Assembly (NCBI GenBank): GCA_903875045.1
Contig: CAIQUS010000073.1
Location: forward strand, 1-58,257
DNA length: 58,257 nt
Direction of reading: 5' to 3'
Source: an uncultured Bacteroidales bacterium
Lineage (GTDB): Bacteria > Bacteroidota > Bacteroidia > Bacteroidales > FEN-979
Position 1 is the stretch's first letter. Each line of letters begins with the position of its first letter. A model generated the notes under the pieces. That model made no database searches and was not told where the DNA came from. It saw only the letters and a list, made by a program, of their open reading frames with translations. A program made the position numbers and the translations under genes. Positions 14,138-43,696 of this stretch are shown here, piece after piece.

Positions 14138-15268
14138 ATGGACCCAAACAGTAAAATTTACATCGCCGGACACACCGGAATGGTAGGATCGGCCATCACC
14201 CGCAGACTTCATGAAAAGGGGTTTACGAACATCATCGGCCGTACCATGGAGGAACTCGACCTGACCAGTCAGCAGGCTGTACAGGATTTTTTTGAGTCGG
14301 AAAAACCAGACTATGTGGTTCTTGCGGCTGCAAAAGTGGGTGGTATCCTCGCCAACAACACCTACCGCGCGCAGTTTATTTATGAAAACCTGATGATTGA
14401 AGCCAACATTATTCACCAGGCTTATCTCCAGGGTGTTAAAAAACTACTTTTCCTTGGAAGTTCGTGCATTTACCCAAAAAATGCTCCGCAACCACTCAAA
14501 GAAGAGTACCTGCTCACCGGCGACCTGGAACAGACCAATGAGCCGTATGCCATTGCAAAAATTGCCGGAATAAAGCTTTGCGAAAGCTACTACCGCCAAT
14601 ATGGCTGCAATTTCATCTCAGTGATGCCAACCAATTTGTATGGTCCCAACGACAACTACAACCTCGAAACATCACATGTGCTTCCGGCAATTATCCGTAA
14701 GATGCATCTTGCTCATTGTCTCGAAACCCAAAATTGGGAGGGAATACGTAAAGACCTTGACACCCGCCCCATCGAAGGAACCAATGGAAAAGCAACTGAA
14801 GATGAAATTCTCCGGATCCTCCATAAATACGGAATCTCCATGGACCCTGATGGAAATCGGGAAAACCCTGTCACTCGTCACTCGTCATTCGTCACTCTTT
14901 CATTATGGGGCACCGGACAGGTATTCCGCGAATTTCTTCACGTCGACGACATGGCAGCTGTTTGTGTTAAAACCCTCGAGGAGATAAACGTGGCTGACCT
15001 AACCGAACCCGGCCTGTTTCCCAGTTCACATGCTCACCCGCTCACCTTCTTTAATATCGGCACAGGGGAAGACCAGACCATTGCCGAAATTGCAGCGTTG
15101 GTAAAATCAATCGTTGGCTTTACCGGTGAAATCAATTGGGACAATTCCAAACCCGACGGCACCCTGCGAAAGCTGCTGGATGTAAGCAAACTGCGGGCAC
15201 TTGGAGTCACGGGATATATATCCCTCGAAAACGGCATCCGTGCTGTTTACAAACAATACACCCGCTAA
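14138..15268 (+). CDS. fcl: GDP-L-fucose synthase
   Basis: 376 residues, longer than the roughly 320 of E. coli WcaG. SDR that epimerises and reduces GDP-4-keto-6-deoxymannose to GDP-L-fucose. Visible: NADPH motif GHTGMVGSAI (8-17), SSCIYP, catalytic Y-x3-K in EPYAIAKI, and NLYGPNDNYNL. An insertion of about 60 residues follows (about 195-260; GIRKDLDTRPIEGTNGKAT and on), common in Bacteroidota. At its end residues 244-253 (PVTRHSSFVT) are encoded by four tandem heptamers of CGTCAC type (14868-14895), so repeat DNA has become coding. Gmd follows 33 bp downstream. Confidence 0.92.
   Translation: MDPNSKIYIAGHTGMVGSAITRRLHEKGFTNIIGRTMEELDLTSQQAVQDFFESEKPDYVVLAAAKVGGILANNTYRAQFIYENLMIEANIIHQAYLQGVKKLLFLGSSCIYPKNAPQPLKEEYLLTGDLEQTNEPYAIAKIAGIKLCESYYRQYGCNFISVMPTNLYGPNDNYNLETSHVLPAIIRKMHLAHCLETQNWEGIRKDLDTRPIEGTNGKATEDEILRILHKYGISMDPDGNRENPVTRHSSFVTLSLWGTGQVFREFLHVDDMAAVCVKTLEEINVADLTEPGLFPSSHAHPLTFFNIGTGEDQTIAEIAALVKSIVGFTGEINWDNSKPDGTLRKLLDVSKLRALGVTGYISLENGIRAVYKQYTR
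14868..14895 (+). repeat. In-frame heptanucleotide repeats (TCGTCAC)4 inside fcl
   Basis: Units CTGTCAC, TCGTCAC, TCGTCAT, TCGTCAC. They encode part of a lineage-variable insertion of the enzyme just before the conserved LWGTGQ segment. The same unit core recurs in the Wzi gene at 45037-45064. Confidence 0.85.
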
Positions 15269-15301
15269 CATTCACAACCATCAACTTTTATTTTTATACT
15301 T

Positions 15302-16345
15302 ATGAATAAAATTGCATTGATATCAGGCATCACAGGCCAGGACGGCAGTTACCTCACCGAACTGCTGCTCGAAAAAGGTTACACTGTTCATGGCATCATC
15401 CGCCGTTCGAGCTCTTTTAATACTTTTCGCATTGACCACATCTACAACAACAAGGAATACCTTAACAAAAGGTTTTTTCTACATTACGGCGACCTCACCG
15501 ATTCGAGCAACCTGAACCGTCTGGTTGAAAAAATCCATCCTGATGAAATTTTCAACCTGGGGGCTCAATCACATGTTCAGGTTTCATTCGAAGTACCTGA
15601 ATACACCGCCGATGTGGACGGCATAGGCACACTGCGATTCCTTGATGCCATCAGGGAAACCGGGGTTAAGACAAGGTTTTACCAGGCCAGTACCTCCGAG
15701 TTGTATGGCTTGGTACAGGAAGTACCCCAGACTGAAAAAACCCCCTTTTATCCCCGGAGTCCTTATGCAGTGGCTAAACTCTATTCTTATTGGATTACTG
15801 TCAATTACCGCGAAGCATATAAACTCTTCGCCTGTAACGGTATTCTGTTCAACCATGAATCAGAGCGCCGCGGAAAAACATTTGTAACCCGGAAAATTTC
15901 AGTTGGCGTGAGCAAGATCATGCTGGGCCTTCAGGAAAAACTATTGATGGGCAACCTTGATTCGAAGCGCGACTGGGGTTATGCACCCGAATATGTGGAA
16001 GGAATGTGGCGTATCCTTCAGGCACCCGAACCCGATGATTTCGTACTGGCCACCAACGAAACCCACACCGTAAAGGAATTCATCGAAAAGTCGTTCAATG
16101 TACTCGGCGAGGAAATTATCTGGGAAGACTCCGGTGTAAATGAACGCGGCATACTCAAATCATCAGGGCGGGAGGTCGTGGCCATCGACCCCAGGTATTT
16201 CCGGCCTACCGAGGTTGACCTTTTAATAGGTGACTACACCAAGGCAAAAGAAAAACTTGGCTGGCAACCGAAAACCACTTTTCATGATCTCGTGAGCCTG
16301 ATGGTTAAAGCGGATTTTGAAAAGATTAAAAACCGGATTGATTAA
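15302..16345 (+). CDS. gmd: GDP-mannose 4,6-dehydratase
   Basis: 347 residues. It converts GDP-D-mannose to GDP-4-keto-6-deoxy-D-mannose, the substrate of Fcl encoded just upstream. Visible: NADP motif [11 protein letters not shown] (8-18), [37 protein letters not shown], catalytic SPYAVAK, and the family-specific [16 protein letters not shown]. It is full length. The gene order fcl then gmd is the reverse of the E. coli colanic-acid cluster. Confidence 0.95.
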
Positions 16346-17967: not shown

Positions 17968-18705
17968 GTGAAAAATAATTTGAAGATTATTGCTATCGTT
18001 CCTGCACGATCCGGTTCAAAGGGAGTGCCCGGAAAAAACATCCGTCCCCTTGCAGGAAAGCCCTTACTGGGATGGATCATTGAAGCGGCAAAACGTTCAG
18101 GTTTTATTGATCGGGTTATTTGTTCAACAGATTCAGCCGAATATGCCGAAATTGCCGGCCAATTCGGTGCAGAAACCCCATTTCTCCGTCCGGCAGAATA
18201 CGCAACTGATGCTGCAACAGATATTCAGGTGCTTACCCATGCTGTGAATTGGCTGGAAACACATGAAAATTATCATCCGGATATTATTTTACGTTTGCAA
18301 CCTACCAATCCAACATTCACAACTGAATTAATTGATGAAGGAATTCAAAAATTATTAAGTACTGCAGGGGCGGATTCGGTTCGTGCAATCGCAAAATGTC
18401 ATAAACATCCCTATAAAATGTGGAAAAGATCCCGGACGGAGGGATTTATTGAGCCATTTTTCGGACCGGAAATTACCCATTACCAGGAACCTTTTAATTT
18501 AGGCCGTCAGCAACTACCGGAAGTTTTTCTTCAGGTTGGTGTGATGGAAGTGTTACATTATCATACACTTATTGACATGAAATCGATGGCAGGAACGAAG
18601 GTCATCCCATTAATTATTGAAAATGAATTAAACATTATAGATATCGACACGGAGATGGATTTTATCCTCGCCGAACTGGTGATACAGAAACTAAATTTAA
18701 AATGA
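17968..18705 (+). CDS. CMP-nonulosonic acid cytidylyltransferase (NeuA/LegF family)
   Basis: 245 residues, GTG start. The N-terminus IIAIVPARSGSKGVPGKNI is the CTP-binding loop of acylneuraminate cytidylyltransferases, which couple CMP to a 9-carbon nonulosonic acid. Other conserved parts are ICSTDSAEYAEIA, LRPAEYATD, LLRLQPTNP (here ILRLQPTNP near 109) and a C-terminal DIDTEMDF. The next gene encodes the sugar-condensing NeuB-type synthase, 22 bp away, so the pair makes and activates one sugar. Neu5Ac, legionaminate, pseudaminate and Kdn types cannot be separated by eye. Confidence 0.85.
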   Translation: MKNNLKIIAIVPARSGSKGVPGKNIRPLAGKPLLGWIIEAAKRSGFIDRVICSTDSAEYAEIAGQFGAETPFLRPAEYATDAATDIQVLTHAVNWLETHENYHPDIILRLQPTNPTFTTELIDEGIQKLLSTAGADSVRAIAKCHKHPYKMWKRSRTEGFIEPFFGPEITHYQEPFNLGRQQLPEVFLQVGVMEVLHYHTLIDMKSMAGTKVIPLIIENELNIIDIDTEMDFILAELVIQKLNLK

Positions 18706-18727: not shown

Positions 18728-20695
18728 ATGTCAAATAACTGGTTTGCCCCAAATCCAATGGACGGAATTTTGGGCAAAAAAATAAGTTCAGTGCGAATTG
18801 GTAACCATTTTGTAGGAGAAGGTTACCCTGCGTATCTGATTGGTGAAATAGGGCTTAATCATGCCGGGAAACTCGACAAAGCAATAGAATTAATTGATAT
18901 AGCTGTTGAAGCAGGATTGGATGCTGTAAAATTTCAAAAACGCACACTGAATAAAATTTATCGGCAGGATCTGCTCGATGATCCAAATACCTATGAAGAG
19001 GGATTCAGATACCTGATACCGATTTTAAAAGAAACAGAATTCGGACGTGAACAATACGATCAATTATATGCCCATTGTCAGAAACGCGGCATTGACTTTC
19101 TCTGTACCCCGTTCGACGAAGAAGCTGTTGATTTTCTGGCGCCATATAACCTGCCTGCCTTTAAAGTGGCCTCCGGTGATATGCATAACCTCATCCTTCT
19201 TGAGAAAATTATCGGAACAGGAAAGCCGCTGATCATTTCAACCGGAATGGCGACTTTTGAAGATATCGACCGTATTGGTAATTTCCTGCGGCGCTGGGAT
19301 GTTGAATGTATTCTGCTTCATGCGGTTTCAGCCTATCCAACACCTGTTGGTGACACACAATTGAACGTGATCAAGGAGTTAAAAGCGAGGTATGGCGTAC
19401 CGGTCGGACTCTCCAGCCACGAATTTGGATTTGAAATTTCAGCTATTTCTATTGCCGCTGGTGCATGTTTGATTGAACGCCATATTACCCTTGACAAAAG
19501 GGAAGAAGGCCCCGACCATTCCTCAAGCCTGGAGCCTGAGGAACTTAAAGAAATGGTGCGTCGGGTAAGGTTTATCGAGGAGGCAATGGGATCCCCGAGA
19601 AAAAAATTGTCCCGAATTGTGATCAGAAATCAGGAAACTTTATCAAAAAGTTTGGTTGCTTCCAGGGATATATCCATTGGCGAACCAATTCTGCGGAGCA
19701 TGATTTCTGCGAAAGGCCCTGGAAAAGGCCTCAGTCCTGTACATTTATACGATCTGATTGGCAAAATAGCACGAAGAGCGGTTCCCAAAGATAATTTTTT
19801 CCTAAATTCCGACATTGAGGAGCATGTGGAATTATCAAACTATGTCCCAAATTTCGATTCAATCTGGGGATTGAAAGGACGTTTTTTCGACCTGGATGTA
19901 TACAACGAAAGATACAATCCGAAGTTTGTTGAAATTCACCTTAATGATAAGGATCTTGACTACCCCTTTGAAGAAATGCATGCCGGCTGCCATTATCCTT
20001 TTGAAATATATCTTCATTACCCAACTTACTGGCACAGAAGTGTTGTCAACCTTGCTTCGGAAAACATGGAAGAGCGTATGCAGCATATCAATGTAGTTCA
20101 ACGGGTTATCGATCTGGCAAGGCGCATAGCCCCCTATTTTACCGGAACACCCAAAGTGGTGGTACACATGGGGGGAATGGACCTTAAACCAATACCTGAC
20201 AACAGGCATCTTATTGAGCTCGGATATGATTCCATGCGGAAATTAAATACGGAAGGCGTTGTTTTCTTAGCTGAAAATAATCCGCCCCGTCCATGGTATT
20301 TTTCAGGTCAGTGGTATGACAATGCATTTTGTCATCCTCAGGAAATGATAGATTTTTGTACAGAATTTAATCTTCCGATGTGTTTTGATTTTTCCCACGC
20401 AAAACTATTCTGTAATGTTACCGGGTATGATTTCTACGAATATGTTCGCCAGGTAGCTCCGATTACCAAACATCTCCATGTGTGCGATGCGTATGGCATT
20501 GACGGTGAAGGCATGCAAATCGGAGAAGGGGAGATCGACATGAAGGAGACAATAAAAATTCTTGCTGAGTATGGTGACCTTTCAACCATGAGTTGGACCC
20601 CGGAGATATGGCAAGGTCACAATCATGATTATCACGGATTTTTACTTGGGTTCAGCAGGTTGATCAACATTCCGGAGCTAAAAGCGGAGGTGTAA
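18728..20695 (+). CDS. Fusion: NeuB-type nonulosonate synthase + SAF domain + xylose-isomerase-like TIM barrel
   Basis: 655 residues, about twice the length of NeuB/LegI (about 340). Residues 35-290 are the PEP-dependent condensing barrel: IGEIGLNHAGKL, DAVKFQKR, CTPFDEE, KVASGDM, ISTGMA, and GLSSHEFG with ERHITLD...GPDHSSSLEP carrying the metal and PEP residues. Residues 300-360 are an SAF/antifreeze-like domain (LVASRDISIGE, KGPGKGL). Residues 375-650 look like a sugar isomerase/epimerase TIM barrel (AP-endonuclease-2 superfamily) with candidate metal ligands in LAENNPP, FDFSHAK, HLHVCDA and TPEIW. Condensing and isomerising steps may be coupled in one chain. The product and the isomerase substrate are unknown. 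Confidence 0.85.
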   Translation: MSNNWFAPNPMDGILGKKISSVRIGNHFVGEGYPAYLIGEIGLNHAGKLDKAIELIDIAVEAGLDAVKFQKRTLNKIYRQDLLDDPNTYEEGFRYLIPILKETEFGREQYDQLYAHCQKRGIDFLCTPFDEEAVDFLAPYNLPAFKVASGDMHNLILLEKIIGTGKPLIISTGMATFEDIDRIGNFLRRWDVECILLHAVSAYPTPVGDTQLNVIKELKARYGVPVGLSSHEFGFEISAISIAAGACLIERHITLDKREEGPDHSSSLEPEELKEMVRRVRFIEEAMGSPRKKLSRIVIRNQETLSKSLVASRDISIGEPILRSMISAKGPGKGLSPVHLYDLIGKIARRAVPKDNFFLNSDIEEHVELSNYVPNFDSIWGLKGRFFDLDVYNERYNPKFVEIHLNDKDLDYPFEEMHAGCHYPFEIYLHYPTYWHRSVVNLASENMEERMQHINVVQRVIDLARRIAPYFTGTPKVVVHMGGMDLKPIPDNRHLIELGYDSMRKLNTEGVVFLAENNPPRPWYFSGQWYDNAFCHPQEMIDFCTEFNLPMCFDFSHAKLFCNVTGYDFYEYVRQVAPITKHLHVCDAYGIDGEGMQIGEGEIDMKETIKILAEYGDLSTMSWTPEIWQGHNHDYHGFLLGFSRLINIPELKAEV

Positions 20696-20733: not shown

Positions 20734-22335
20734 ATGTTAAAAAAAATTGTCCTTAAGTTATTGTATTTCTACCGGTTAATTCTGTGTGAATTTGATTTGC
20801 TGTTCAGAAAAACGACAAAACCATCTCAAACCGTATCACAATCGATCAGACAGTGGCTGATTGTCATAAATTCATCGGAGTTACAACCGGTTCGGGGAAG
20901 GGTATTAATTTCAGCCCTTAGAAACAGAACCTGGATTGAATGGGCAGTTTACTGTGCCTGTATGCTGAGAAGATTAGGATTTGAATCAACTTTATTCTAT
21001 GATGGTCAGCTGGTTCAAGTACTTTATCCGGCTAAAATTGCAAAGTTCAATTTTTTCCGTCAGGCATCAAAAGTTCCGGGAATCAGACTTGTGGATATCA
21101 ATCTGCCTGCAAAAAAACCTGCAGAAAGCAAATGGATGGGTGAAGTGAATGATTGGGCAATAACTGCGCTTGCTTATGATCTTCATATTGAAGAAAATGA
21201 CATAAACAATGACCTGGCGCGTTATGCAGCGCAATTAAAAACCAAGAGTGAATATGCCGCACATCTGGCATCGGGCCTGGAAGAATTTTTATCAGCCAAT
21301 TCATTTCAACGGGCATTCCTTTACAGCGGTCTGATCGGTGAATCGAAAGTTCTTCTGACAGTTCTGAGATCATTCAATATTGACACCATTTGTCTGGAAG
21401 GCTGGGGATGGCGCCCGGGTCATTTGATTTATAATCTCAATGCCCCTGCCCTGGAGTACAATATGGATGGCTGGATCAAATCAACCGGAGAATGGGATGC
21501 AACCAAGGAAAAGGAGATGCAAAAATACCTCAGGTTCCTGGAAGGGGAAGATTACACAGATTCTAAATGGCTGAACAATTTTTACAGGGTACAGCGCTCA
21601 AAAGCCAAAGATGATTTACCACAGGCGCTGGCAACATTTTTAGAAGGCAGTGACCCTATCTTTCTGCTTGCCCCGAATGTAATCGGCGACAGTTCCATGT
21701 TAAACAGACACACCTTTTTCCCGGGTGAAAAAGTCTGGATCAGGGAAATAATTGACTGGTTTAAGAAAAGGCCTTCTGTCAAACTAGTCATCAGGGCCCA
21801 TCCGGGGGAGGTATGGGCAGGACCAAAATGTCAATCGCATATTGGCGAATTCGCCCGAAAAGAGGCAAAGGGTATTGCAAATGTGTTTGTCATCGACGGA
21901 TTTGATAAAGTGAATACCTTCGCCCTCATACCTTATGTCAGGGCCGGGCTGGTATGGATCAGCAACGCCGGGGTCGACTTTGTGCTGCGCGGTCTGCCTG
22001 TTATGACAGCTGCAAGGCCAAAGTACAGCGGAATGGGGATTGTTTTGGAACCGGACAATAAACTGGACTATTTTCAAAAAATTGAAGAGTGGATTTTTGC
22101 ACAGGACCGGCCTACCCCGATGCAAATTAGTCAGGGCAAGCGGTATTTGTATGTTGTGTTTAAAGGATTTTCATTCGAAGCATGCAGCCCGGATTACCGA
22201 GCAACAGGTTTTATCATCGACAAAATGCCCAATCAGGAGGAGCACGATAAATTTTATAAAATAATGATCGGCGATTTACCCATGCCCGATTTGGAGCATC
22301 AGTCAATCCCTGAAAACTGTTCCTCATCCAGATGA
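20734..22335 (+). CDS. Capsule-type GT-B glycosyltransferase candidate (KpsS/PF05159-like)
   Basis: 533 residues, no clear membrane anchor. I do not recognise a close named family, but the C-terminal half resembles the capsule-biosynthesis transferase fold: VIRAHPGE near 353-360 (HP-x-E motif), then FALIPYVRAGLVWISNAGVD and LRGLPVMT, the nucleotide-site loop (Ser/Asn-x-Gly...). CMP-sugar transferases of the KpsC/KpsS type use such motifs. Its position directly after the CMP-nonulosonate genes makes a nonulosonate transferase the best guess. It overlaps the flippase gene by 4 bp (ATGA). Confidence 0.5.
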   Translation: MLKKIVLKLLYFYRLILCEFDLLFRKTTKPSQTVSQSIRQWLIVINSSELQPVRGRVLISALRNRTWIEWAVYCACMLRRLGFESTLFYDGQLVQVLYPAKIAKFNFFRQASKVPGIRLVDINLPAKKPAESKWMGEVNDWAITALAYDLHIEENDINNDLARYAAQLKTKSEYAAHLASGLEEFLSANSFQRAFLYSGLIGESKVLLTVLRSFNIDTICLEGWGWRPGHLIYNLNAPALEYNMDGWIKSTGEWDATKEKEMQKYLRFLEGEDYTDSKWLNNFYRVQRSKAKDDLPQALATFLEGSDPIFLLAPNVIGDSSMLNRHTFFPGEKVWIREIIDWFKKRPSVKLVIRAHPGEVWAGPKCQSHIGEFARKEAKGIANVFVIDGFDKVNTFALIPYVRAGLVWISNAGVDFVLRGLPVMTAARPKYSGMGIVLEPDNKLDYFQKIEEWIFAQDRPTPMQISQGKRYLYVVFKGFSFEACSPDYRATGFIIDKMPNQEEHDKFYKIMIGDLPMPDLEHQSIPENCSSSR

Positions 22336-36981: not shown

Positions 36982-38073
36982 ATGAAAACAATTCTCTCCA
37001 TCATCGGTACCCGGCCCAACTTTATTAAAATTGCACCCGTTTACCGTGCCTTTTTAAAATACGCACCCGAAGTGAAACATCTTCTTTGCCATACAGGCCA
37101 GCATTCAGATGATAAGATGTCGAAAGTGTTTTTCGATGACCTTGGAATCCCTGCTCCCGATTTTCACCTGGGCGACAATAGCGGTTCCCATGCTGAGCAA
37201 ACCGGTAAAATCATGGTTGCCATTGAAAAGGTATTGGGCGAAGTTAAGCCCGACCTGCTGATTGTGGTCGGTGATGTCAATTCCACCATGGCATGCGCGC
37301 TCACGGCGGTAAAAATGCATATTCCTGTAGCCCATATCGAAGCAGGGCTGCGAAGCGGCGACCGGTCGATGCCCGAAGAAATCAACAGGATCATAACCGA
37401 TTCCATCTCCGATTTACTGTTCATTACCGAAAAAAGTGGTCTGGAAAACCTTGAAAGGGAAGGTATTCCACACGAAAAGGTGTTTTTTACCGGAAATGTG
37501 ATGATCGACAGCCTGGTTTATCTGAGAGAAAAAATCGCCGCCTCAACCATCCTTCAAACTACCGGGTTAAAGGAAAAAGATTATTTCCTGGTCACTTTCC
37601 ACAGGCCCTCCAATGTTGATAATCAGCATTCGCTTCAAGAACTGATCAGGTTTCTGAATGAAATCTCTGCCATGAAAGAGGTCGTTTTCCCAATTCATCC
37701 CCGAACATTAAGAAAGATTGCCGAGTTCGGCCTGGGCGATACAGTCTCATCAAATGTTCGCATGATCGAACCATTGGGATATCTTGACTTTCAATCACTG
37801 ATCAGCAAAGCCTTTATGATCGTTACCGACAGTGGTGGCATTCAGGAAGAGACCACCTTTCTGGGAGTACCTTGCGTAACTGTCAGGGACAACACCGAAC
37901 GACCCGTAACGGTTGAGGTTGGAACAAATATTCTTTGTGGATCCGATACCGGAATTGTCCTTCAAACCATCAGGGCCGCTGTGGCCGGTAACATCAAGAA
38001 AGGGACTATTCCGGAACTGTGGGATGGAAAAGCCGCCGAGCGGATTGCGGAAATCATTGTTCATAAACTATAA
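36982..38073 (+). CDS. wecB: UDP-N-acetylglucosamine 2-epimerase (non-hydrolysing)
   Basis: 363 residues from ATG 36982, 5 bp after the acyltransferase stop; an open frame extends back to 36829 but only overlaps that gene. WecB interconverts UDP-GlcNAc and UDP-ManNAc. Visible: IIGTRPNFIKIAPV (6-19), HTGQHSDDKMS, VVGDVNSTMACAL, HIEAGLRSGDRSMPEEINR near 120-138, FTGNVMIDSL, HRPSNVDN and DSGGIQEE near 276-283 with the conserved EET. A TagA/WecG-type transferase follows 8 bp later, so ManNAc or its uronate is probably the second sugar. Confidence 0.93.
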   Translation: MKTILSIIGTRPNFIKIAPVYRAFLKYAPEVKHLLCHTGQHSDDKMSKVFFDDLGIPAPDFHLGDNSGSHAEQTGKIMVAIEKVLGEVKPDLLIVVGDVNSTMACALTAVKMHIPVAHIEAGLRSGDRSMPEEINRIITDSISDLLFITEKSGLENLEREGIPHEKVFFTGNVMIDSLVYLREKIAASTILQTTGLKEKDYFLVTFHRPSNVDNQHSLQELIRFLNEISAMKEVVFPIHPRTLRKIAEFGLGDTVSSNVRMIEPLGYLDFQSLISKAFMIVTDSGGIQEETTFLGVPCVTVRDNTERPVTVEVGTNILCGSDTGIVLQTIRAAVAGNIKKGTIPELWDGKAAERIAEIIVHKL

Positions 38074-40222: not shown

Positions 40223-41338
40223 ATGAATATTCTCATAACCGGGGGTGCGGGCTTTATCGGCTCGCACACCGCTGATAAATTGGTCACCCTTGGCCATAAT
40301 GTAAGGATCCTTGATGCCCTCCGGCACCCGATTCACCTGAAGGGATTTCCGAAATACCTTGATAAAACAAAGGTTGAATTTATCTTTGGCGATGTTCGCG
40401 ACAGATCGGTCCTGGAATTCGCACTCACGGGTATTGATGTCGTTTATCATCTTGCTGCATACCAGGATTACCTTCCTGATTATGCAACATTTACACACAT
40501 CAATGCCTACAGTACCTCCCTGATTTATGAAATAATCGAACAAAAAAAATTACCTGTCAGAAAGGTAATTGTTGCTTCATCCCAGGCAGTAATGGGTGAA
40601 GGCCGGTATTTGTGCGAAGAGCATGGTTTTTTCTATCCGAATATCAGGTCAGATAACCAACTTCAACTGAAAGAATGGAATCATTTATGCCCGGTTTGCA
40701 AAAAAGCGTTGGTCCTGCAAAAATCTGATGAAACGGTTATCAATCCTCAGAACCCTTATGCCATGTCGAAGTACATGCAGGAGATGCTTGCCATAAACCT
40801 GGGGCGACGGATTGGTATCCCCTCAGTTGCCATGCGGTATTCCATTGTTCAGGGGCCGCGGCAAAGTTTTTACAATACCTATTCCGGGGCGTGCCGCATT
40901 TTCTCTTTGTGCAATTACCTGAAAAAACGGCCTACGATTTATGAGGATGGGATGATGCTCAGAGACTATGTGAACGTGCATGATGTGGTGGATGCCAACG
41001 TAATGGTCATGGAAAAAAGTGAAGCTGATTTCAATGTATTTAACGTTGGTGCCGGCCAAACATGGACGGTCAATGAATTTGCCGGCATCGTCGCATCCGT
41101 CTTTAATACGGAAATCGGAACTACCATGCCCGGCGAGTACCGTTATGGGGATACCCGCCATATTTTCTCTGATACAGCGAAACTACAATCCCTGGGGTGG
41201 AAACCACAACGAACGATCCGGGATAGTGTTGCCGAATATAAAACCTACCTTGAAGGGCAATTGGACATTGAAGACATTGTTGATTTTGCTGAAAAGAACA
41301 TGCGCTCCCTTGGTGTAATCAGAAAAGCAATCGTATGA
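40223..41338 (+). CDS. Extended SDR epimerase/dehydratase with a CxxH...CxxC insertion
   Basis: 371 residues. NAD motif GGAGFIGSH (7-15), ASSQAV (118-123) and catalytic Y179-x3-K183 are intact. Between the Ser and Tyr elements lies an insertion of about 40 residues with Cys131-x2-His134 and Cys156-x2-Cys159, a zinc-ribbon-like set unusual for SDR enzymes. It overlaps the GHMP kinase gene by 4 bp, followed by a nucleotidyltransferase, so it may process a nucleotide-activated heptose or similar sugar. The exact reaction is unknown. Confidence 0.82.
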   Translation: MNILITGGAGFIGSHTADKLVTLGHNVRILDALRHPIHLKGFPKYLDKTKVEFIFGDVRDRSVLEFALTGIDVVYHLAAYQDYLPDYATFTHINAYSTSLIYEIIEQKKLPVRKVIVASSQAVMGEGRYLCEEHGFFYPNIRSDNQLQLKEWNHLCPVCKKALVLQKSDETVINPQNPYAMSKYMQEMLAINLGRRIGIPSVAMRYSIVQGPRQSFYNTYSGACRIFSLCNYLKKRPTIYEDGMMLRDYVNVHDVVDANVMVMEKSEADFNVFNVGAGQTWTVNEFAGIVASVFNTEIGTTMPGEYRYGDTRHIFSDTAKLQSLGWKPQRTIRDSVAEYKTYLEGQLDIEDIVDFAEKNMRSLGVIRKAIV

Positions 41339-42333
41339 TCATCAGCCAAACGCCTTTGCGTATCAGTTTTGTCGGAGGAGGCACCGACCTTCCATCTTTT
41401 TACCGGCAACAACCTGGGATGGTGCTCAGCAGTTCCATCGATAAATATATTTTTGTCATCGTGACGGAACGTTTTGATGAAAAAATTTACATCAACTATA
41501 CAAAAAAAGAAATCGTTGACAGGGTTGACCAGATACAACATGCACTGGTTCGTGAGGCAATGATAAAAACCGGTATTGAAAAGGGGATTGAAATTACGAT
41601 GCTGGCTGATATCCCATCGGCCGGATCCGGTCTTGGCTCATCGTCATCTCTGACTGTTGGATTGTTAAATGTATTATATAACCTGAAAGGACAAAGCGTA
41701 ACCGCTGAACAACTGGCCAGGGAAGCTTGCGAAATTGAAATCGATATACTGAATAACCCAATCGGCAAACAGGATCAGTATATTGCCGCCTTCGGAGGAT
41801 TAAAAAAGATTATTTTCAATCCCGATGATAGTGTTGAGGTGGTCAGCCTGAATGCCTCTGCAGATAAACGGATTAAACTTGGATCAAACCTGCTGCTGCA
41901 TTTCACCAATATCACCAGAAATGCCAATCTGGTTCTTGCTGAACAAAACAGTAAAGCACAGGAAAATTTCACCTTTTTATGTGAACTGGCCAATCTCGTT
42001 CCTCTCCTCGAAGAGTCCTACAAAGCTGGTGATATTGACGCTTTTGGGGAATTTCTGAGGATCAACTGGGAACTGAAGAAAAAACTGGCATCCGGTATTT
42101 CGAAACCGGAGATTGAAGAAATGATCAAAATTGCGGAAAACAGCGGTGCAACCGGCTATAAAATAGCCGGTGCCGGTGGAGGAGGGTTCCTGTTAAGCTA
42201 TGTCCCGAGGGTTTTGCAGGACACTTTTCGTTTGGGAATGCAGCAATACCAGGAGTTGCCATTTATGCTTGATCCGTTTGGCACCCGGATTATTTTTAAT
42301 ATGCGGAGATATAATTCTAAAGTCTCTTTTTAA
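41335..42333 (+). CDS. GHMP-family sugar kinase (HddA-like)
   Basis: 332 residues, normal for HddA, which makes D-glycero-alpha-D-manno-heptose 1,7-bisphosphate. N-terminus IISQTPLRISFVGGGTDLP (2-20) is the family signature for heptose and related sugar kinases; ATP loop PSAGSGLGSSSSLTVG near 96-111; third motif KIAGAGGGGFLL near 277-288. Only part of the GDP-heptose pathway is adjacent: no GmhA isomerase or GmhB phosphatase is visible. Fucokinase-like or other GHMP roles remain possible. Confidence 0.82.
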   Translation: MIISQTPLRISFVGGGTDLPSFYRQQPGMVLSSSIDKYIFVIVTERFDEKIYINYTKKEIVDRVDQIQHALVREAMIKTGIEKGIEITMLADIPSAGSGLGSSSSLTVGLLNVLYNLKGQSVTAEQLAREACEIEIDILNNPIGKQDQYIAAFGGLKKIIFNPDDSVEVVSLNASADKRIKLGSNLLLHFTNITRNANLVLAEQNSKAQENFTFLCELANLVPLLEESYKAGDIDAFGEFLRINWELKKKLASGISKPEIEEMIKIAENSGATGYKIAGAGGGGFLLSYVPRVLQDTFRLGMQQYQELPFMLDPFGTRIIFNMRRYNSKVSF

Positions 42334-42375
42334 TCATTCATCATATTCAAAAAAATATTTAAACCATCACTGTAG

Positions 42376-43098
42376 ATGAAAGCTGTTCTTTTAGCTGCCG
42401 GACTGGGAACAAGGTTACTTCCTTTGACAAGGGAAATCCCCAAATGCCTGATTCCGGTCAATGGTGTTCCGTTAATGGATTACTGGTTCAGGCTTTTCCG
42501 TAAGTTCGGCATTGACGAGGTGTTGATCAATGTGAACCATCTGCCGGAGAAAGTAAAGGTGTATGTTGATGAAAACGCACATGACCTGAAAGTTACGTTG
42601 ATTTATGAAAAACAATTACTTGGAAGCCTGGGAACCATTTTAAACAACCGTCAGTTCTTTCATGCGGATGAAGATGTCTACATTTTCTACTCCGACAACC
42701 TGACTAACATTGATTTGAGCCGGATGCACCAGTTTCATAAATCTTCCGGATCGAGTTTTACCATGGGGCTTTTTCGCACCAATAATCCGACTGGTTGTGG
42801 AATCGTTGAATTGGATGAAAATTCCACCGTTACCTCCTTTTTTGAAAAGCCTGCAAATCCAAAGTCAGACCTTGCCAACGCCGGAATTTATCTGACTTCA
42901 GGTTCCTTATTTGATAACCTGCCTGAATTTGAAACCAACCCCGACCATGTGGTTGACATCGGGTTCCATTTACTCCCGAAACTGGTAAACAGGATGAAAG
43001 GATATCCGATCCCTGAATTTTTACTCGATGTAGGCACTATCGACAACCTGAATTTTGCAAATAATTATGTTAAAGCCAATCCTGTTTTATTTCGCTGA
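42376..43098 (+). CDS. Sugar-1-phosphate nucleotidyltransferase (HddC-like)
   Basis: 240 residues. N-terminal LLAAGLGTRLLPLTREIPKC holds the G-x-GTR nucleotide motif (9-12) and the PK substrate segment; FYSDNLTNIDL near 99-109 has the metal Asp, and FFEKPANPKSD with NAGIYL near 155-175 completes the fold. This GT-A nucleotidyltransferase class includes HddC (GDP-heptose) and mannose-1-phosphate guanylyltransferases. Placement after the GHMP kinase supports an anomeric kinase-guanylyltransferase pair. Confidence 0.85.
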   Translation: MKAVLLAAGLGTRLLPLTREIPKCLIPVNGVPLMDYWFRLFRKFGIDEVLINVNHLPEKVKVYVDENAHDLKVTLIYEKQLLGSLGTILNNRQFFHADEDVYIFYSDNLTNIDLSRMHQFHKSSGSSFTMGLFRTNNPTGCGIVELDENSTVTSFFEKPANPKSDLANAGIYLTSGSLFDNLPEFETNPDHVVDIGFHLLPKLVNRMKGYPIPEFLLDVGTIDNLNFANNYVKANPVLFR

Positions 43099-43114: not shown

Positions 43115-43696
43115 ATGGCCAAAACTAACACAATATCAAAGCTTCTGGATTATTTATCACCGGTGAAGGAAATTGCTCTGTTTCTGGTGATTTCGGCGAT
43201 TATCATTCAGGGATGGAAGATAATGAACCTCGATATTCTTTTATCTTCAACCTTCACCCGGCTTTTTCATTGGCTGATGGAAATTGAATTCACCATCTCA
43301 TCTTTCCTTGTTGGTCTCATTTTTCCGGTAACGCTGAATAAAGCACAGTTTCTGATCAACTTACCGAACAACAACTCCATTTTTCTTTTTGAGGGCTGCT
43401 CAGGATTAAAGCAAGTGATCCAATTTACTCTGCTTATCCTGTGCTACCCCGGGCGTATTCAAAGGAAACTCTGGTATATCCCTTTTTCAACAATGGTGCT
43501 GCTCATTGCCGCAATGATTCATTTTATTTTTCTTTGTGTCGTTCTCTATAAACTTCCTGAACAATACGAATTCATGCATGACAACCTGTCCCGCTGGTTC
43601 TTCTTTGGAATCTTTTTTCTTTTGTGGGTTCTGTTTATCAGGGTTAAAAAAACAGAGAATGTAAACTCCTTAAAATCCGAGATTCATTCCGATTGA
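43115..43696 (+). CDS. Exosortase-family-like membrane protein lacking the usual Arg
   Basis: 193 residues with about six membrane spans. Exosortases are transpeptidase-like membrane proteins, with Cys, Arg and His active-site residues, that occur with exopolysaccharide loci. Here EGCSGLKQ gives Cys95, and HDNLSRWFFFG near 155 gives His155. The Arg expected in the N-x-x-R segment of the span between them appears replaced (AAMIHFIF, His136). It may be inactive or a divergent subfamily. Its last 27 bp overlap the convergent Wzi gene. Confidence 0.65.
   Translation: MAKTNTISKLLDYLSPVKEIALFLVISAIIIQGWKIMNLDILLSSTFTRLFHWLMEIEFTISSFLVGLIFPVTLNKAQFLINLPNNNSIFLFEGCSGLKQVIQFTLLILCYPGRIQRKLWYIPFSTMVLLIAAMIHFIFLCVVLYKLPEQYEFMHDNLSRWFFFGIFFLLWVLFIRVKKTENVNSLKSEIHSD

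Follow-up and report, generated by a model that had tools for sequence, protein, structure and literature searches.

A NeuB synthase fused to a metal-type TIM barrel points to a possible 9-phosphate route to CMP-nonulosonate in an uncultured Bacteroidales bacterium

Introduction

What would a nonulosonate synthase do with a second, metal-type barrel at its C-terminus? The question is raised by a NeuB-type gene on contig CAIQUS010000073.1 (GenBank assembly GCA_903875045.1) of an uncultured Bacteroidales bacterium, of which we analysed positions 1 to 58,257; this whole stretch of 58,257 nucleotides is called the window here. A preliminary description regarded the gene as a NeuB-SAF-TIM-barrel fusion and possibly a new enzyme of nonulosonate biosynthesis, thought that the extra domain looks like a metal-dependent sugar isomerase and suggested that it may replace a missing NeuC/LegG or aminotransferase step. 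We arrive at a different and tentative answer, to which we give a probability of roughly 0.4 from sequence comparison: the protein may be a bifunctional enzyme of a short 9-phosphate route to cytidine monophosphate (CMP)-nonulosonate, in which the barrel would act as the phosphatase. The fusion, its conserved residues, its predicted fold and the kinship of its NeuB half with phosphatase-linked synthases are seen in the sequence.

Results

A synthase and a TIM barrel in one chain

The fusion gene is one open frame on the forward strand, with an ATG start, 655 encoded amino acids and no internal stop. Pfam places the AP_endonuc_2 family (PF01261) at residues 425-627 with an E-value of 1.9e-14, above the curated cut-off. 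The two NCBIfam equivalog models for the synthase were missed, with 303.1 bits against a cut-off of 399.65 for NeuB_NnaB (TIGR03569) and 237.5 against 340.25 for PseI (TIGR03586). The AlphaFold2 model of residues 366-655 has a mean predicted local distance difference test score (pLDDT) of 92.6 and a predicted template modelling score (pTM) of 0.92, and its strands alternate with helices. In the model of the full chain (pLDDT 88.8, pTM 0.69) the arrangement of the domains is less certain. On the Pfam match and the predicted fold, the C-terminal domain is a TIM barrel of the AP_endonuc_2 superfamily. As the preliminary description had expected, isomerase folds are among its Foldseek matches, the best of which are 3wqo (MJ1311), UlaE, MbnB and YcjR, with Endonuclease IV (Endo IV) structures at ranks 17, 21 and 23.

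A scan with the barrel across one genome per species turned up 342 stretches coding for a relative; the 80 best of them were fetched. All 80 carry the NeuB-TIM fusion (contig ends truncate L013 and L069); since the architecture recurs in every fetched relative, it is neither chance nor an artefact of gene calling or assembly, and the fused chain of the preliminary description is real. Together with the window and L003, these make 82 distinct fusions. Left out before counting were L001 and L004 (the window itself), L002, L005 and L006 (contigs of equal length to those of L029, L051 and L022) and L007 (no fusion). Neighbours were counted for 80 of the 82, because the greedy gene calls miss the main gene of L008 and L034.

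The fusions fall into three classes according to the N-terminus and to residues 480 and 516, the changes of these two residues being always coupled (16 versus 66 of the 82). Class C (n = 16), to which the window belongs, combines His480 with Glu516 and is without a CBS domain. Class A (n = 32) has Asn or Ser480 with Gln516, also without CBS. Class B (n = 34) has the same replacements and a long N-terminus. Pfam finds CBS there in 30 of 34 at an E-value of 0.001 (some under the Pfam cut-off), and blastp with the CBS part of a kinase in 31 of 34. One member, L076, was counted in class B by its length; it has no CBS at its N-terminus, where the start is apparently miscalled, and it probably belongs to class A.

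To judge by record titles, hosts of the fusion include Verrucomicrobia, Chloroflexi, Cyanobacteria, Bacteroidetes, Chlorobium, Proteobacteria, Bacillales, Lentisphaerae and others. The window genome has one barrel match and one NeuB, and the barrel is matched in 3 of 198 sampled genomes of its class and in 4 of 395 of its phylum (its own genome counted in both; one of the four is weak and unfused). The nearest barrel relative, L008, lies in an Opitutaceae metagenome-assembled genome (MAG). Its 76% barrel identity stands against the class that the window genome shares with a Bacteroidetes MAG, and either horizontal transfer or a binning error could account for this.

A barrel relative is also encoded on five viral contigs, three of which were read: L207 and L208 carry the fusion and L211 a free-standing barrel. 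The two viral fusions sit among glycosyltransferase-like genes with a sialyltransferase-like gene nearby upstream, and in L207 a CMP-synthetase-like gene precedes the fusion (all by eye); in L208 a dihydrodipicolinate-synthase-like gene lies 3' of it. The free-standing barrel (L211:4992-5783) is flanked by DNA methyltransferase-like genes, and no NeuB was seen in that stretch.

The NeuB half is kin to phosphatase-linked synthases

The window protein keeps E40, K68, Q70, K146, Y203, H231, E250, H252 and D263. All but Y203 correspond to catalytic-type residues of NmeNeuB, and each of these eight is kept in 80 or 81 of the 82 fusions, the others being gaps. The window further has R72 and the motif S-H-E at 230-232, where most relatives have G-H-E: Arg72 occurs in 80 of 82 (the others are gaps) and Glu232 in 81, and residue 230 is Gly in 77 and Ser in 4, including the window. 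The G-H-E signature is shared by the animal synthase.

The SAF domain differs at one position. Gly330 of the window occupies the place of NmeNeuB Arg314, which has a role in N-acetyl binding in prokaryotic NeuBs that use N-acetylmannosamine (ManNAc). None of the 82 fusions has Arg there (Ser in 65, Gly in 16, Cys in 1), compared with 72 Arg, 8 Lys, 11 gaps and 1 Thr among 92 unfused NeuBs. The latter comprise 81 open reading frames (ORFs) from 76 of 80 fetched regions, chosen around the upper part of 114 listed places with the lowest-scoring places left out, and 11 from fusion loci. The structures 4ipi, 4ipj and 1xuu differ at the SAF position (Ala, Lys and Arg), which we presume to be R314 of NmeNeuB. 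The SAF domain 1wvo, deposited as 'Sialic acid synthase', is also without Arg there; we take it to be the human enzyme, which uses ManNAc 6-phosphate. A ManNAc route as in classical NeuB is weakened by this arginine loss, together with the lack of an adjacent NeuC.

Eight of the 92 unfused NeuBs also have Gly230 in a G-H-E motif; they lack SAF, and the SAF Arg position is aligned in none of the eight. In a NeuB tree built with the signature columns removed and 40 of the 82 fusions included, the fusions form a single branch (Shimodaira-Hasegawa-like approximate likelihood ratio test, 95) that is sister to these eight synthases (joint branch, 93), while the other 84 unfused NeuBs fall apart from both. 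One fusion, L079, was assigned to the Ser480/Gln516 subgroup of this tree without being on the residue list of that subgroup, which shifts the subgroup figures by a row and leaves the fusion branch unchanged.

The sister synthases are closely linked to phosphatases of the HAD family. By profile hidden Markov model (HMM), with flanks of ~4 kb for unfused regions and up to 10 kb for fusions, a HAD phosphatase of one kind is linked to seven of the eight, as the next gene, as part of the NeuB chain itself (L178) or as part of the neighbouring CMP-synthetase (L186), and lies within two genes of 0/71 D/R-type NeuBs (Fisher p = 2.8e-9, the eight synthases being one clade). One D/R-type NeuB has this HAD three genes off, beside a second, G-H-E NeuB. 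Around the fusions, this HAD was not found within two genes by HMM (0/80). With a looser HAD motif scan, the same for all groups, the counts were 7/8 for unfused G-H-E synthases, 0/73 for the others, 0/15 for class C, 0/33 for class B and 4/32 for class A (GmhB-like or similar, by eye). NeuC occurs at a distance of two genes or fewer in 24/71 D/R-type NeuBs, 0/8 G-H-E synthases and 0/80 fusions, and elsewhere in the locus in 2/80 fusions, one of them the window.

The HADs linked to G-H-E synthases match KdsC/YrbI structures and the BT1713 structures 3e81, 3e84, 3e8m and 4hgo, presumably the phosphatase of 2-keto-3-deoxy-D-glycero-D-galacto-nononic acid 9-phosphate (Kdn-9-P). The match to BT1713 suggests that the sister clade is BT1714-like. 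The linkage would be explained most simply if the barrel occupied the position that belongs to the phosphatase in the sister synthases. The HAD-NeuB fusion (L178:3911-5338) and the CMP-synthetase-HAD fusion (L186:4770-5936) look like other joinings of the same pathway steps.

Residues of the barrel and the chemistry they suggest

The window barrel carries nine metal-type residues: H430, H480, E516, D554, H557, H584, D592, E594 and E626. Conservation among homologues, which the preliminary description had made a touchstone, is strict for D554, H557, H584, D587, E594 and E626, invariant in 82/82 fusions, as are several further Arg, Asp and His. MJ1311 is the top match both by fold (E 4.2e-11) and by profile (E 5.5e-14), and in the profile alignment H430, H480, E516, D554, H557, H584 and E594 pair with identical residues of it. 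H480, E516, D554, H557 and H584 also align with the same residues in the genome's own Endo IV. This resemblance to the MJ1311/Endo IV set favours phosphoester chemistry in the class of the window, but not clearly in classes A and B.

The main alternative is that the barrel is a sugar or sugar-phosphate isomerase or epimerase that feeds NeuB, for example by converting fructose 6-phosphate to channelled mannose 6-phosphate, with a separate phosphatase acting later. Most of the Foldseek neighbours are epimerases or isomerases, and the window and 15 other fusions hold both Glu of the pair typical of D-tagatose 3-epimerase (DTE), E516 on beta-4 and E626 on beta-8. DTE-type epimerases use this beta-4 and beta-8 Glu pair as catalytic acid/base for two-Glu proton transfer, which should be lost in the 66 of 82 fusions with Gln at beta-4. 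A match to type I phosphomannose isomerase (46.9 bits) is already present in the genome, and the phosphatase gap would stay unexplained. As the only reading, an isomerase is weakened by the double change of H480 and E516 to Asn or Ser and Gln; we retain it as a rival and judge it unlikely. Of the earlier description, the metal-type barrel stands and the isomerase assignment is disfavoured.

Free-standing homologues of the barrel give this alternative further support. They match the fused barrel (hhalign probability 97.5%, E 7e-12) and occur within two genes of a D/R-type NeuB at seven loci (L133, L138, L153, L158, L159, L162 and L163), with a DegT-type gene at six, a NeuD-type gene at four and NeuC in the fetched region of none; cluster names at these loci were checked on one representative each. 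The adjacent NeuBs are of the SAF-Arg type. The barrels measure ~285 amino acids, or ~420 in L133 and L138, where an acetyltransferase-like N-terminus is seen by eye.

A proposed route and the evidence against it

In the route that we propose, a 3-deoxy-nonulosonate 9-phosphate (Kdn-9-P) would be formed in the NeuB domain by condensation of phosphoenolpyruvate (PEP) and an aldose 6-phosphate, in the simplest case mannose 6-phosphate. The metal TIM barrel, with its Endo IV-like residue set, would then hydrolyse the 9-phosphate and so do the work that falls to the HAD phosphatase among the sister synthases, and the adjacent synthetase would make the CMP-sugar for capsule glycosyltransferases. 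We infer three points: a phosphorylated substrate, phosphatase activity, and Kdn rather than N-acetylneuraminic acid (Neu5Ac) as product.

GDP-mannose derives from mannose 6-phosphate, and the gmd and fcl-like genes of the window locus lead us to expect both. Neither a HAD phosphatase nor NeuC is found within two genes of the fusion gene in the window, and no aminotransferase stands beside it. The absence of NeuC/LegG noted in the preliminary description is thus confirmed for these positions, but a Kdn route from mannose 6-phosphate needs neither NeuC nor an aminotransferase, so that neither has to be replaced by the barrel; the step that is lacking relative to the sister synthases is the phosphatase.

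Several observations weigh against a phosphatase barrel. Alignment with Endo IV gave a weak score (hhalign probability 12%, E 0.0024), H430 and E626 were paired only by eye with what we take to be H69 and E261 of Endo IV, and no Endo IV model is among the NCBIfam matches of the 655-residue protein up to an E-value of 1. Epimerases (UlaE, YcjR and psicose epimerase) outrank Endo IV in Foldseek, and the 66 fusions with Asn or Ser480 and Gln516 have two residues of the Endo IV-like site replaced. A 9-phosphate is not expected at the D/R-type NeuB loci with free-standing barrels, and these barrels may do something else. On the side of the linkage, L172, one of the eight G-H-E synthases, has no HAD beside it, and the seven HAD linkages are not independent because the eight synthases are one clade, all from the class of the window genome. 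One KdsC-type HAD is encoded elsewhere in the window genome, so a phosphatase could act in trans, and GmhB-type HADs occur in 10/32 class A loci. The Leptospira fusion discussed below did not cluster with the animal synthases in the part of the published account that we consulted (PMC3438082).

A second alternative keeps the barrel as phosphatase and changes the sugar. In an animal-like route, ManNAc 6-phosphate and PEP would give Neu5Ac-9-phosphate, which the barrel would then dephosphorylate. The G-H-E signature and the missing SAF Arg, as in 1wvo, agree with it, and the three Epimerase_2 genes of the window genome, one at 37057-38058 of the window, make ManNAc possible there. Without NeuC within two genes of any of the 80 fusions there is no linked ManNAc supply, and sugar-kinase families are outside the 25 commonest among the scanned class B and C neighbours. 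This is the route put forward for the Leptospira fusion, and the Neu5Ac reported in that species speaks for ManNAc (excerpts of PMC3438082). We consider this alternative improbable.

Neighbours of the three classes

The neighbourhood survey, suggested by the preliminary description, found a frequent CMP-synthetase at position -1 in class B (20/31) and class C (9/13), little else that is shared, and no HAD phosphatase of the kind linked to the sister synthases within two genes in either class (0/48). The class C scan covered 70 neighbours within three genes of 14/16 fusions (the window and L008 left out) and the class B scan 118 neighbours within two genes of 32/34 (L034 and L076 left out). CTP_transf_3 is the commonest family, with 8 members in class C and 26 in class B, and neither HAD nor Epimerase_2 is among the 25 commonest families of the scanned neighbours. 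MptE-like (2 in class C, 6 in class B) and polysialyltransferase families (2, class B) occur as well, consistent with a CMP-nonulosonate product.

Class A is different, and its recurrent neighbourhood is possibly a pathway of its own. An HddA-like kinase precedes the fusion at -1 in 29/31, with a CBS-like N-terminus in 26 of the 29; the remaining three kinases are ORFs of 203-299 amino acids, two of them the first gene of the locus. A GmhA cluster is found at +1 in 16/32 and somewhere in 20/32 loci, an NTP-transferase cluster in 20/32 and a GmhB cluster in 10/32. Cluster names rest on scanned representatives: GmhA scored 162-177 bits in three loci (cut-off 209.45), the kinases 239-258 of 600, and GmhB 181 and 185, above the cut-off of 149.6; two of three scanned NTP transferases had no NCBIfam match at an E-value of 1e-40. 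In class A loci such as L060 and L082, the CBS-HddA-like kinase, NTP transferase, GmhA, GmhB and CMP-synthetase recur alongside the fusion, as do a class III or IV aminotransferase, a VOC protein, a free-standing barrel and short-chain dehydrogenases/reductases. The free-standing UlaE-like barrel of class A (cluster c5) was tried as close kin of the fused barrel and set aside, as the hhalign probability was only 4%.

These genes raise a third alternative, in which the enzymes of class A, and perhaps that of the window, would take as aldose the heptose 7-phosphate made by GmhA and form a ten-carbon ulosonate. An HddA-like kinase is present in the window locus too (41335-42333). The heptose genes alone would account for GDP-heptose in the same glycan, the GmhA cluster is mostly missing from class B (2/33) and absent from class C (0/15) loci, and kinase, transferase and GmhA all score under equivalog cut-offs, which leaves this option very doubtful. 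Equally speculative is the combination in which the barrel is a TIM-barrel nonulosonate-phosphate phosphatase, a non-orthologous substitute for the HAD, so that a single chain and a CMP-synthetase would lead from central metabolism to an activated sugar acid, and the class A kinase/GmhA machinery acts on heptose 7-phosphate towards an undescribed ten-carbon ulosonic acid. A non-catalytic structural or regulatory barrel, which the replaced residues of classes A and B and the fusion of class B to CBS, a domain known as a sensor, might suggest, is highly improbable given the residues that are invariant in 82/82.

The window locus

The features of the window are collected in Table 1. The Capsule_synth family of the downstream gene is matched by 5 of the 70 scanned class C neighbours.

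Table 1. Features of the fusion gene and its locus in the window
Feature	Coordinates	Strand	Evidence
NeuB-SAF-TIM fusion gene	18728..20695	+	ORF and Pfam; architecture common to 80/80 fetched relatives
NeuB synthase domain, residues 55-291	18890..19600	+	PF03102, E 9.8e-76, 254.8 bits (cut-off 22.1)
SAF domain, residues 308-364	19649..19819	+	PF08666, E 1.8e-6, 28.8 bits (cut-off 21)
C-terminal metal TIM barrel (predicted), residues 370-655	19835..20692	+	Pfam, AlphaFold2, Foldseek, residue alignments
CMP-sugar synthetase, likely partner gene	17968..18705	+	CTP_transf_3; best NCBIfam match PseF, 142 of 205.7 bits, under cut-off
Capsule_synth protein, candidate ulosonate transferase (putative role)	20734..22335	+	PF05159
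GDP-fucose synthase-like and GDP-mannose 4,6-dehydratase	14138..16345	+	440.5 of 500 bits; 580.2 bits (cut-off 415)

The GDP-fucose synthase at 14138-15268 matches its model in two stretches, with an insert in which something like a repeat is seen by eye. Also in this capsule locus, 41335-43098 encodes the HddA-like kinase (137.3 of 600 bits) and a sugar-1-phosphate nucleotidyltransferase, followed at 43115-43696 by an exosortase-like membrane protein (by eye). GmhA-like genes are located elsewhere in the window genome.

Discussion

The architecture, in which the preliminary description saw a possible new enzyme, is not wholly new. Ricaldi et al. (2012; PMC3438082), in the sections consulted, described a Leptospira NeuB whose C-terminal domain is 'homologous to endonucleases' and proposed that it is a phosphatase. 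To judge by that description, Leptospira interrogans YP_002104 / NP_711794 has, as here, a NeuB followed by a domain homologous to phosphodiester-cleaving endonucleases, and the adjacent accessions are an aminotransferase and a CMP-synthetase. The two differ in the proposed product, Neu5Ac there and, by our preference, Kdn here. Our result agrees with the phosphatase idea and adds many phyla and, at the level of sequence, residue and linkage evidence. A limited literature search found no other report of a NeuB-barrel fusion, though this does not prove absence. New here are the breadth of the family, its three classes, the arginine loss, the complementarity with phosphatases and the heptose-linked class.

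Other known systems place the fusion between familiar ones. With classical NeuB, LegI and PseI it shares the NeuB domain, the PEP-site-type residues and SAF; it differs from them in lacking the SAF Arg, in R72 and (S/G)-H-E, and in having no NeuC within two genes. Its closest unfused relatives adjoin KdsC/BT1713-type HADs, as in the BT1714/BT1713 type; the kinship of the NeuB domain with that type is found in the window, and the linked HAD is absent within two genes of its gene. BT1714 and a B. thetaiotaomicron Kdn-9-P phosphatase are named in the consulted part of PMC6200933, which also states that, of the sugars tested, the Prymnesium Kdn-9-P synthetase converted only mannose 6-phosphate. 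Those pathways, as far as this source describes them, use a HAD or an unidentified phosphatase, whereas the window protein has a fused metal TIM barrel and keeps SAF. Among barrels, MJ1311 (3wqo, 'D-tagatose 3-epimerase-like protein') has the same metal-type residues as the class of the window but is a free-standing chain of 293 residues; our literature search found no paper on it. Endo IV has the barrel fold and most Zn-ligand positions in common with that class, but 66 of the 82 fusions lack two of the ligands.

If the proposed route is true, the capacity to make nonulosonates could not be judged by the presence of NeuC, LegG or a HAD phosphatase, and two genes could suffice. In environmental bacteria from many phyla, and on a few viral contigs, loci of this kind would be missed or called Neu5Ac, and a superfamily annotated mostly as isomerases would gain an activity with the barrel. 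Because the loci are simple, the question of the substrate is directly testable with one purified protein.

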